DNA of 32,180 bases from Pseudomonadota bacterium (GTDB lineage Bacteria; Pseudomonadota; Gammaproteobacteria; Xanthomonadales; Xanthomonadaceae). Within the stretch, counting starts at the first letter, position 1. Each line of letters begins with the position of its first letter. The notes beneath the pieces are model-generated. The model had not been told where the DNA came from, made no database searches, and worked only from the letters and a program-made list of their open reading frames with translations. The stretch is from NCBI GenBank assembly GCA_963205445.1, contig CAUJJG010000031.1:1-32180 (forward strand), in the 5' to 3' direction. Shown here piece after piece: positions 9,836 through 15,746 of this stretch. Position numbers and translations under genes: made by a program.

Positions 9836-10651
9836 TCAACGGCAGTTGGTGAAATGACCCGCTTTGCGTGCCGCTTCCATGACGGGGATCAAGCCGTACG
9901 CTCGCGCCTGCAGCTCACGCAGCCGCGATGCCGGATCTGGATGGGTAGACAGCCATTCAGGGGAACGGCCACCGCCCGCGGCAGCCATGTTGCGCCACAG
10001 GGACACAGCCCCTTCGGGATCGAAACCGGCTTTGGCCATCAACGCCTGTCCCACCACGTCGGCTTCGGTTTCCTGGGCCCTTGAGTTGGGCAACAGGAAG
10101 GCACCCTGCAGCAGCGCTCCGCCCAGCTGGCCCGTGGTTTGCTGGGCAGCCTCCCCATAGCGCGCGCCCGCCACTGCCCCCGCCACTCCCAAGCCCGTCT
10201 GGGCCAACAGCTGGCGAGTGATGCGCTCATCGTGGTGGCGGGACAGCACGTGGCCAATCTCATGCGCGATTACGCCAGCCAGCTGATCCTGGTCTCGCGC
10301 CACTTTGAAAATGCCCGTGTAAACGCCGATCTTCCCGCCCGGCAGGGCCCAGGCATTGGCTTCGGCATTCTCGAACAGGGCAAACTCCCAAGGCGTCTGG
10401 CGTGCTTGTGGCGGCAGCTGGGCCACCACCGCATCGACCACGCAGGCCACATAGGCCAGTTGCTTCGAATCCTTGACAAGCGGCCCTTGCTTGCGGGCTT
10501 CGGTGAATGCCTGCAGGCCCATTTGCTGCAGTTGGGCCTGCGAGACCGCACCCACGTATTGGGTGCGCCCGGTTGGCGACGTGGTGGTCGCACAAGCCAC
10601 CAGCACGGCAGCGATGACGCTTGCGATCAGGATGCGCGTTGGCGTTGCCAT
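9836..10651 (-). CDS. M48 family metallopeptidase, lipoprotein-like
   Basis: HEIGHVLSRHHDERI (HExxH), ETEADVVGQALMAKAGFDP, N-terminal signal with LVACATTT lipobox. Confidence 0.9.
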   Translation of the reverse strand: MATPTRILIASVIAAVLVACATTTSPTGRTQYVGAVSQAQLQQMGLQAFTEARKQGPLVKDSKQLAYVACVVDAVVAQLPPQARQTPWEFALFENAEANAWALPGGKIGVYTGIFKVARDQDQLAGVIAHEIGHVLSRHHDERITRQLLAQTGLGVAGAVAGARYGEAAQQTTGQLGGALLQGAFLLPNSRAQETEADVVGQALMAKAGFDPEGAVSLWRNMAAAGGGRSPEWLSTHPDPASRLRELQARAYGLIPVMEAARKAGHFTNCR

Positions 10652-10670: not shown

Positions 10671-13160
<2,490 letters not shown>

Positions 13161-13223: not shown

Positions 13224-14309
13224 TCATGCCTGCTGCCGTAGCACCCCATGTTCCACGTGAAACATCGCGATATTCCCTTGCCCACCCAACAAACCCGGGG
13301 GGGGGCTGGTACCCGTGACCAAGATCTGGGCCCCTGTTTCCTGCAGGACTTCAGCCAAGCAGGCCTGATGGCGGCTATCCAGTTCTGACCCCAAGTCATC
13401 CAGTTGCAGCAAGGGCCAAGTGCCCCGCTCCTGCGCAATCTGCCCTGCCTGCGCCAACAACAGTGCAAGCGCCAGCTGCTTGGCCTGGCCTCGAGACAGG
13501 CATTCCCGCCCAGGAAGACCCGACAGTTGGATGCGCAGATCGGCACGATGCGGCCCTACGCTGGTGTAGCCCAGCCCCTGGTCCCGATCCCGACCCAACA
13601 GCAAGGCATCCCGCAGCGCGAGCTCCTTGCGCCGCCATCCGGGGGCCAAATCGAGCGCAAGCCCGTTGGCTGCCGGCAACAGGCGCTGGACCAGCGGGCC
13701 AAGCGCGTTCGCCAACTGGGTTACATGTGTTTCACGAAGGTGGGTGAGGGCCTCACCGGAGTTGGATAGCTCCACCTCCCAAGCATCGAGCTGGGTTGCA
13801 GCACCACCGGAGCGCAGCAAGGCATTCCGTTGCTTCAGGGCGCGGGCATAGCGGCGCCACAACGGCATGAATGCATGTTCCACGTGAAACATGCCCCAAT
13901 CCAGATAGCGCCGGCGCACCTCACTGCTGCCATCCACCAGCGCGTGGCTGCCGGGTTCGAAACTGACCACCGCCACGGCCTGGCAAAGCGCGCTCAACTG
14001 CGTGACAGTGGCACCATCCATTCGCGCTTCCCAGCGGCTGCCCGCATGCCGAAGCCCAATGCGACGCAGTCCGCCATCAGGAAGTGTCCATTCCGTGAAC
14101 ACTTGCAAGTCAGCCTGTCCGCTGCGGATCAATCCGTCCCGCACGCGCCCACGAAAGCTTCGACCATGCGCCAACAGATGCAGGGCTTCCAGCAACGTGG
14201 TCTTGCCGCTGCCGTTTTCACCCGTGATGAGGTTGAAACCGGGTTGCGGTTGAAACGCGACCTCGGAAAAACAGCGGAAATCATGCAGGTGCAGGCGGCG
14301 GATCATCAT
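13224..14309 (-). CDS. recF: DNA replication/repair protein RecF
   Basis: LHLHDFRCFSEVAFQPQPGFNLITGENGSGKTTLLEALHLLAHGRSFR (Walker A), SRGQAKQLALALLLAQ signature; between dnaN and gyrB. Confidence 0.96.
   Translation of the reverse strand: MMIRRLHLHDFRCFSEVAFQPQPGFNLITGENGSGKTTLLEALHLLAHGRSFRGRVRDGLIRSGQADLQVFTEWTLPDGGLRRIGLRHAGSRWEARMDGATVTQLSALCQAVAVVSFEPGSHALVDGSSEVRRRYLDWGMFHVEHAFMPLWRRYARALKQRNALLRSGGAATQLDAWEVELSNSGEALTHLRETHVTQLANALGPLVQRLLPAANGLALDLAPGWRRKELALRDALLLGRDRDQGLGYTSVGPHRADLRIQLSGLPGRECLSRGQAKQLALALLLAQAGQIAQERGTWPLLQLDDLGSELDSRHQACLAEVLQETGAQILVTGTSPPPGLLGGQGNIAMFHVEHGVLRQQA
13249..13264. promoter_or_regulatory. parS-type centromere site, copy 1 (inside 3' end of recF)
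   Basis: TGTTCCACGTGAAACA matches consensus TGTTnCACGTGAAACA at every fixed position. Confidence 0.85.
13876..13891. promoter_or_regulatory. parS-type centromere site, copy 2 (inside recF)
   Basis: TGTTCCACGTGAAACA, identical to copies 1 and 3. Confidence 0.85.
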
Positions 14310-14337
14310 GCCGGATGCCCAAGAGAGGGGACAAGAA

Positions 14338-14361
14338 AACGCCCGGTGGGAACCGGGCGTT
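14338..14361 (-). terminator. Rho-independent terminator between dnaN and recF
   Basis: aacgcccggt-ggga-accgggcgtt: 10-bp perfect stem; minus-strand transcript continues TTTTCTTGT after the stem. Confidence 0.7.
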
Positions 14362-14369
14362 GCAAGGGA

Positions 14370-14385
14370 TGTTCCACGTGAAACA
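14370..14385. promoter_or_regulatory. parS-type centromere site, copy 3 (dnaN-recF intergenic)
   Basis: TGTTCCACGTGAAACA, identical to copies 1 and 2. Confidence 0.88.
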
Positions 14386-14394
14386 TGGCTTGTG

Positions 14395-15495
14395 TCAGAG
14401 CCGCAACGGCATCACCACGTGGCGGGCATGTTGGCTTTCCGCGCCACGCACCAAAGCCGAAGAATTGGCGTCACGCAACTGAATGATGACAAATTCGTCG
14501 CGAAGCGAGGTCAACGCTTCCAGCAAGTAGGTGACATTGAACCCAATTGCCAGGGCGTCCACGCGCGTTTCTGCTTCCAGTTCTTCCTGTGCTTCTTCCT
14601 GCTCCGGGTTGTGGGCACTGATGCGCAGCAGATCCGGGGCAATTTCAATGCGCACACCCCGGTATTTTTCGTTGGAGAGGATGGAAGCACGCTGCAACGC
14701 GGCGCGCAGGGCTTCACGATCCACCTTCACTTCACGGTCCGCGCCAATCGGGATCACTGCTTCGTAATCGGGGAACTTGCCATCGATCAACTTGCTGGTG
14801 AAGGTCACGTCATCCCGCTTGACCCGGATGTGGCTTTTCCCGATCTCCAGCGCAAGTGACCTGTCGCCGCCCTCCAGCAAGCGCTGCAGCTCCTGCACAC
14901 CCTTGCGCGGCACGATGATCTGGCGCTTTCCGCCGTGCGCTTCCGACAAGGTGGTTTCGCAGAGCGAGAGGCGATGCCCGTCGGTGGCAACACAGCGAAG
15001 GCTGTCTTCACGCAGATCAAACAGCAGGCCGTTCAAGTAATAACGCACGTCCTGTTGCGCCATGGCGAAGGCCGTGCGTTCCAGAAGCTCCTTCAACGCC
15101 GCTTCCAACACCGTCACACGCTCACTGGCATCGACATCATCCAGTGACGGGAAATCGTTGGCGGGCAGGCTTGCAAGGCTGAAGCGGCTACGCCCGGCCT
15201 GTACCGTGACCTTTTCCCCGTTCTGGCTGACTTGTACGCGGCTGCCGTCCGGAAGCGCGCGAACGATTTCGAAGAACTTTCTGGCGGGAATGGTGGCTTC
15301 ACCGTCCTGCGCATCATCCACGGCGGTACGCGCCACCATTTCGACTTCCAGATCGGTGCCTGTCAACGCCAATTGACCGTCTTGAACACGGACCAGCAGG
15401 TTGGCAAGAACCGGCAGGGTGTGCCGGCGTTCGACGACGTTGACCACCTGCGCCAATGGCTTGAGCAGGACTTCGCGTTGGAGGGAAAACCGCAT
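14395..15495 (-). CDS. dnaN: DNA polymerase III subunit beta (sliding clamp)
   Basis: MRFSLQREVLLKPLAQVVNVVERRHTLPVLANLLV; C-terminal ALVRGAESQHARHVVMPLRL; between dnaA and recF. Confidence 0.97.
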   Translation of the reverse strand: MRFSLQREVLLKPLAQVVNVVERRHTLPVLANLLVRVQDGQLALTGTDLEVEMVARTAVDDAQDGEATIPARKFFEIVRALPDGSRVQVSQNGEKVTVQAGRSRFSLASLPANDFPSLDDVDASERVTVLEAALKELLERTAFAMAQQDVRYYLNGLLFDLREDSLRCVATDGHRLSLCETTLSEAHGGKRQIIVPRKGVQELQRLLEGGDRSLALEIGKSHIRVKRDDVTFTSKLIDGKFPDYEAVIPIGADREVKVDREALRAALQRASILSNEKYRGVRIEIAPDLLRISAHNPEQEEAQEELEAETRVDALAIGFNVTYLLEALTSLRDEFVIIQLRDANSSALVRGAESQHARHVVMPLRL

Positions 15496-15746
15496 GAGGA
15501 CCCCTTGCCCTGGTTGGTAGCGGGAGCGTCAAAGGCAACGGCTCCTGCTTTTGAGAGATGTATAAAGCTATGAAAATGGTGGTGCTGGTGTTGCCAAAAT
15601 TCCGGTATAACTTGCTTATGCTGTTGATTTAATTGCTTTTTTTATTTTTTAACTAGGTTGGAAAAACTGGCTGGCGCTTTGTACAAGTTGTGGATGGATT
15701 TTGCGGTGAAAAACAGTTCACGTGTTGTCCACAGCGTATCCCGAGG
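15496..15746. other. oriC: Candidate chromosomal replication origin (oriC), dnaA-dnaN intergenic region
   Basis: Strongly AT-rich core (about 15600-15655: ctgttgatttaattgctttttttattttttaacta) in a GC-rich window; DnaA-box-like TTGTCCACA at 15725-15733 (8/9) and CCATCCACA (minus, 15689-15697, 7/9); position between dnaA and dnaN. Confidence 0.65.

Follow-up and report, generated by a model that had tools for sequence, protein, structure and literature searches.

A probable oriC-proximal parS cluster written in part into recF, and recurrence of the recF pair across Gammaproteobacteria

Three copies of one 18-mer lie close to dnaA-dnaN in the genome analyzed here, two of them inside the coding sequence of recF. 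We assign a probability of about 0.93 to the reading that these are parS sites of the chromosome's own ParB, forming an oriC-proximal centromere, and that the recF pair is ancestral in Gammaproteobacteria. It is furthermore likely that the two in-frame recF sites were the ancestral gammaproteobacterial centromere and as such wrote, over a large part of the history of this class, the same hexapeptide at two unrelated structural positions of RecF, and that lineages losing ParABS, such as Escherichia coli, keep decayed fossils of them (CFHNEP and MFTVEK).

Results

Three identical sites beside the probable replication origin

The window, i.e. the whole stretch of 32,180 nt that was analyzed, contains the 16-mer TGTTCCACGTGAAACA at 13249-13264, 13876-13891 and 14370-14385, each copy being enclosed in the common 18-mer ATGTTCCACGTGAAACAT (Table 1). 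Both the positions and the shared 18-mer had been given in a preliminary description of this DNA and were borne out by exact sequence match. With regard to placement, its coordinates hold; however, it missed that the sites at 13249 and 13876 are recF coding sequence and form a class-wide pair, only the site at 14370 being intergenic. When up to three mismatches were allowed, these three sites alone were matched in the window, each scored on both strands. Shuffled windows gave a mean of 0.40 matches and never reached 6, in keeping with the earlier claim that the repetition is beyond chance.

The genome scanned (G000) comprises 2.44 Mb in 194 contigs and is 84.6% complete. It holds three perfect matches to the 16-bp palindrome TGTTNCACGTGNAACA, all within 1.1 kb beside dnaA-dnaN, and a reversed control pattern had no perfect match in the 2.44 Mb. 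The genome-wide scan that the preliminary description had proposed thus returned oriC-proximal copies and none that were scattered. At up to three mismatches, 65 matches were obtained genome-wide compared to 84 for the reversed control, hence there is no hidden second tier of sites. Given the fragmented and about 85% complete assembly, further parS copies could lie in its unassembled parts. Judged from its named relatives, the genome would belong near Thermomonas (Lysobacteraceae/Xanthomonadaceae, Gammaproteobacteria).

The gene order on the minus strand is dnaA, dnaN, recF and gyrB, with rnpA, yidC and mnmE next on the plus strand. The GC skew changes sign at ~14-16 kb of the window, and because the dnaA-dnaN gap is also A+T-rich and carries the DnaA-box-like TTGTCCACA, oriC is probably located in this gap. 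All three parS sites lie 1.1-2.5 kb from it, which agrees with the 1-2.5 kb expected earlier, as measured from this predicted oriC. A strong hairpin with a T-rich tail was observed directly after dnaN, adjoining the gap parS (Table 1). Hairpins of this type are not in excess over shuffles and the assignment as a terminator is only suggestive; an attenuator between dnaN and recF is possible. Elsewhere in the window, the minus-strand ORF at 9836-10651 shows, as read by eye, a HEIGH-type metal-binding motif and probably encodes an M48-family metallopeptidase. An RNA family search of the window gave no matches.

Table 1. Features of the window around the three parS sites (coordinates in nt of the window)
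Feature	Coordinates	Strand	Details
gyrB	10671..13157	-	TIGR01059, above cut-off
recF	13224..14309	-	361 aa; TIGR00611, E 1e-96, above cut-off; host of two parS sites
parS 'site 2', recF 3' end	13248..13265	.	ATGTTCCACGTGAAACAT; coding strand ATG TTT CAC GTG GAA CAT = MFHVEH, RecF aa 349-354
parS 'site 1', mid-recF	13875..13892	.	same 18-mer; MFHVEH within ...RRYLDWGMFHVEH..., RecF aa 140-145
Terminator-like hairpin after dnaN, just past gap parS	14338..14361	-	10-pair stem, loop 4
Gap parS, dnaN-recF	14369..14386	.	same 18-mer as both recF sites
dnaN	14395..15495	-	TIGR00663, E 3e-100
dnaA-dnaN intergenic region, probable oriC	15496..15746	.	A+T-rich stretch; DnaA-box-like TTGTCCACA at 15725
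dnaA	15747..17177	-	TIGR00362, E 9e-160

The genome encodes a single ParB next to ParA

The preliminary description had located parA and parB outside the window and had made its reading depend on a parB in the genome. Both genes are present on contig C34, separate from the contig with the parS sites, in the directly consecutive order rsmG-parA-parB, and parB exists as a single copy in the genome (TIGR00180, E 2.3e-57). The protein has the N-terminal domain, the helix-turn-helix and the dimerisation domain (ParB_N, HTH_ParB and ParB_C). Residues R173 and G201 (Caulobacter numbering) are absolutely conserved in ParB and altered in Noc to Q173/R201 (PMC7383237); alignment to Caulobacter ParB (6t1f) revealed that the equivalents of both are retained here. 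The presence of ParA and ParB, the preserved specificity residues, the clustering of the sites and their recurrence in relatives all support the original reading as an oriC-proximal parS cluster.

The recF pair recurs across the class

Gammaproteobacteria were sampled evenly, with approximately one genome for each family (class sample); the regions around 120 recF genes were fetched and the RecF proteins aligned. Sites were counted by position window, as counting from the alignment alone overlooked a few. Relatives found by means of motif-containing seeds were excluded from all frequencies, and the class sample and a sample of 100 genomes of the family were used instead. The 14-bp core GTTYCACGTGRAAC is present at site 1 in 97/120 and at site 2 in 92/120 class genomes, and 82/120 carry both. 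The two sites are 627 bp apart in our genome and 606-669 bp apart across 78 class genomes. Within the family, site 1 has the core in 99 of the 100 genomes, site 2 in 94 and both in 93. The core was absent from all 49 recF regions examined outside the class but within the phylum, and the site-1 motif is absent from the solved RecF structures of other phyla. Strict 16-mers total 137 in the 120 class genomes; 117 are located in recF, 8 in the flanking DNA that was fetched together with it, and the other 12 elsewhere.

Upstream of recF, 85 of the 100 family genomes have a core site, as against 0/120 in the class sample; the gap parS is accordingly an addition at the level of the family. About one third of the family genomes contain no strict 16-mer. 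We considered and rejected this as true absence: for the most part the sites are missed because the last or first codon is one for Pro or Arg, and 99/100 family recF genes examined have the site-1 core. Relatives with one mismatch to the strict 16-mer escape such strict scans.

Neither core is present in 13/120 class genomes (~11%), most of which do carry ParB; these genomes speak against the reading proposed here. Six loci with ParB and neither recF site were noted individually (L131, L145, L150, L176, L181 and L212), several of them from genomes without any strict parS.

Codon choice points to constraint on the DNA

Both coding sites are read in one recF reading frame and encode the identical peptide MFHVEH. 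One might argue that RecF itself requires MFHVEH and that the likeness to parS at the DNA level is a by-product. The elements DW-G-x-F-H and a C-terminal F-x-V are indeed partly common to RecF proteins of parS-less bacteria (E. coli CFHNEP and MFTVEK), and certain RecF C-termini from outside the Gammaproteobacteria, such as TFHVQA and TFHVES, resemble the motif. However, RecF proteins outside the class lack the FHV of site 1, and the choice of codons is difficult to reconcile with a need of the protein. Among class genomes with FHV(E/K), the pattern NNG-TTY-CAC-GTG-RAA-CNN was found in 95/98 cases at site 1 and 89/94 at site 2, whereas the codon usage of the individual genes, given the residues present, would predict 2.8 and 3.7. 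In the class sample, this corresponds to a ~25- to 35-fold excess over expectation. When all 4-codon windows of recF were scanned, both site positions ranked first. In genes with GC3 <0.4, His is encoded by CAC in 32/33 (site 1) and 30/31 (site 2) cases, whereas elsewhere CAT dominates and CAC accounts for 32%.

The residues vary exactly where the DNA is free, and the codons do not. The first residue may be V, L, M, A, T, S, R, W, K or Q (once I), and its codon ends in G in 191/192 cases; E and K are exchanged at the fifth residue; the last is H, P, Q or R, always with a codon starting in C. FHVE with freely chosen synonymous codons was not seen in ParB-bearing relatives. Two genomes (L209 and L225) have the core at its usual place in recF or close to it, but read in a different frame and encoding STWNI, which gives the impression of a shift in position or frame with retention of the DNA. 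An AlphaFold2 model of RecF (mean pLDDT 91.6, pTM 0.90) places the site-1 peptide at the end of a predicted helix (129-143) and the site-2 peptide in a predicted C-terminal beta-hairpin (347-353, 356-360). A constraint on DNA would be expected to produce just this, the same peptide in structural contexts that have nothing in common, and in the model this too speaks against a protein requirement, which we consider very improbable. Selection at the recF sites thus acts on the DNA rather than on the peptide.

The two sites also tend to change together, a further sign of selection on the DNA. Both deviate in five genomes. They are identical to each other in L132 (GTTCCACATGGAAC), L160 (GTTCCACGTAGAAC) and L207 (GTTTCATATGAAAC) and reverse complements in L185 (GTTTCACATGAAAC and its reverse complement); in L222 one change is common to the two sites and another is not. 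The paired deviations in L132, L160, L185 and L207 suggest a shifted ParB specificity. The Y position agrees between the two sites above expectation (Fisher p 1e-7), an agreement to which shared ancestry and base composition contribute.

Decay of the sites in Enterobacterales without ParB

All recF sites are broken in the clade of Enterobacterales that lacks a chromosomal ParB. Site 2 is intact in 21/25 ParB-positive and 0/7 ParB-negative genomes of the Enterobacterales sampled (Fisher p 1e-4), although the ParB-negative genomes form one clade and hence approximately one independent event. In E. coli K-12, recF reads TGC TTT CAC AAC GAA CCC and ATG TTT ACC GTG GAA AAG at the two positions, with 4 and 3 mismatches to the core. 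Vibrionaceae-like genomes (L300 and L301) are the sister group of this clade; they have kept ParB and lost site 1, and their site 2 has a change of one base (CATGTG), which counts against the reading proposed here. As far as these sequences go, the decay of the sites along with ParB is consistent with relaxed constraint, as a single event and not as an independent statistical test. A further candidate for such a loss, apparently without ParB and sites (G309, L209), was discarded: its core lies ~21 bp further downstream and is read in a different frame, while its ParB may be encoded in unassembled DNA.

The ParB-less clade bears on another explanation, namely that the parS sites are unused relics in the lineage studied here. 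Since all sites are broken in that clade, disuse would be expected to show. The lineage studied here has three identical 18-mers and an intact ParA and ParB, and its family keeps both recF sites in 93/100 genomes. We regard the sites as probably in use and find the idea of relics hardly credible.

Comparison with known ParABS systems

In Pseudomonas aeruginosa, parS1 and parS2 are located within recF, near oriC (PMC5521831, PMC3909081). ParB has a high affinity for both parS1, TGTTCCACGTGGAACC (...GGAACC), and parS2, TGTTCCACGTGGAACA (...GGAACA); for partitioning, any single site out of parS1-4 is both required and enough, and mutation of parS1-4, coding-neutral for the intragenic ones, leads to a parS-null phenotype (PMC4368675). 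Experiments thus support both the one-mismatch (Pro) form, through the high affinity for parS1, and a role at the DNA level, through the coding-neutral mutants. The likeness to our genome lies in the two recF sites. In P. aeruginosa, parS1 ends in C (Pro codon) and parS2 is a perfect palindrome; a Pseudomonadaceae-like locus (L299) has exactly the parS1 and parS2 forms at both class-wide positions. In contrast, P. aeruginosa has its additional sites, parS3 and parS4, near PA0011 and PA0013, while our genome has its additional site between dnaN and recF, and all of its sites are the same 18-mer.

The P. aeruginosa data also allow a mainly regulatory role to be weighed, in which spreading of ParB would repress or tune the dnaA-dnaN-recF-gyrB operon and segregation would be secondary. 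An excess of ParB lowers expression of PA0003-PA0015, which the authors tied to parS1 and parS2 in recF (PMC5521831). However, at native levels the only genes whose expression rises when ParB or parS1-4 are lost are PA0010-PA0015, which lie close to the intergenic sites, and not the neighbours of the intragenic sites (PMC5521831), and a single site of parS1-4 already suffices for segregation (PMC4368675). Regulation as the main role therefore seems unlikely to us. By analogy with P. aeruginosa, binding of ParB and a function in segregation may be expected in the organism studied here.

Xanthomonas citri has been described as having "at least one" parS, located where dnaN has its 3' end (PMC3937727, with reference to Livny et al. 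2007). This bacterium would belong to the same family and shares the dnaN-recF neighbourhood, and its site probably corresponds to the gap parS at 14370; the recF sites are not mentioned in the passages of PMC3937727 that deal with parS. Bacillus subtilis and Caulobacter, whose chromosomal parS sites work with ParB-CTP clamps, share the same 16-bp site and a ParB family with R173 and G201. To our knowledge, neither has an in-frame parS pair in recF. The recF-gyrB region of Caulobacter is a hot spot for artificial parS insertions, which the authors left unexplained (PMC5815017). We found no description of the class-wide recF pair or of its codon signature in the open papers searched; an earlier notice in Livny et al. 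2007 is possible.

Discussion

How the sites would work follows from the known ParABS mechanism. ParB dimers would bind the parS palindrome, form closed clamps in a CTP-dependent manner and slide onto adjacent DNA; ParA would then move the ParB-coated region right after oriC has been copied, and this region may also load SMC. Selection on the 14-bp core sets the codons and most of the RecF residues at two places (x-F-H-V-E/K-x), and the third site, in the dnaN-recF gap, was added in this family.

The presence of parS1 and parS2 in recF and their role in segregation are already known from P. aeruginosa, and as a parS cluster the site is unremarkable. Noteworthy is its location: across a class, a centromere and a DNA-repair gene are encoded by the same DNA, and the residues can vary only where this DNA can. 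Such an arrangement explains why RecF of Gammaproteobacteria contains two FHV(E/K) motifs that are mostly absent from other RecF proteins, and it is a warning that these residues should not be taken as a sign of protein function. It also implies that centromeres are undercounted when only strict 16-mers are scanned for, as is the case with proline as the last residue. The naturally co-varying site pairs offer material for the study of changes in ParB specificity, and in the relatives of E. coli, recF would preserve a sequence fossil of the loss of ParABS.
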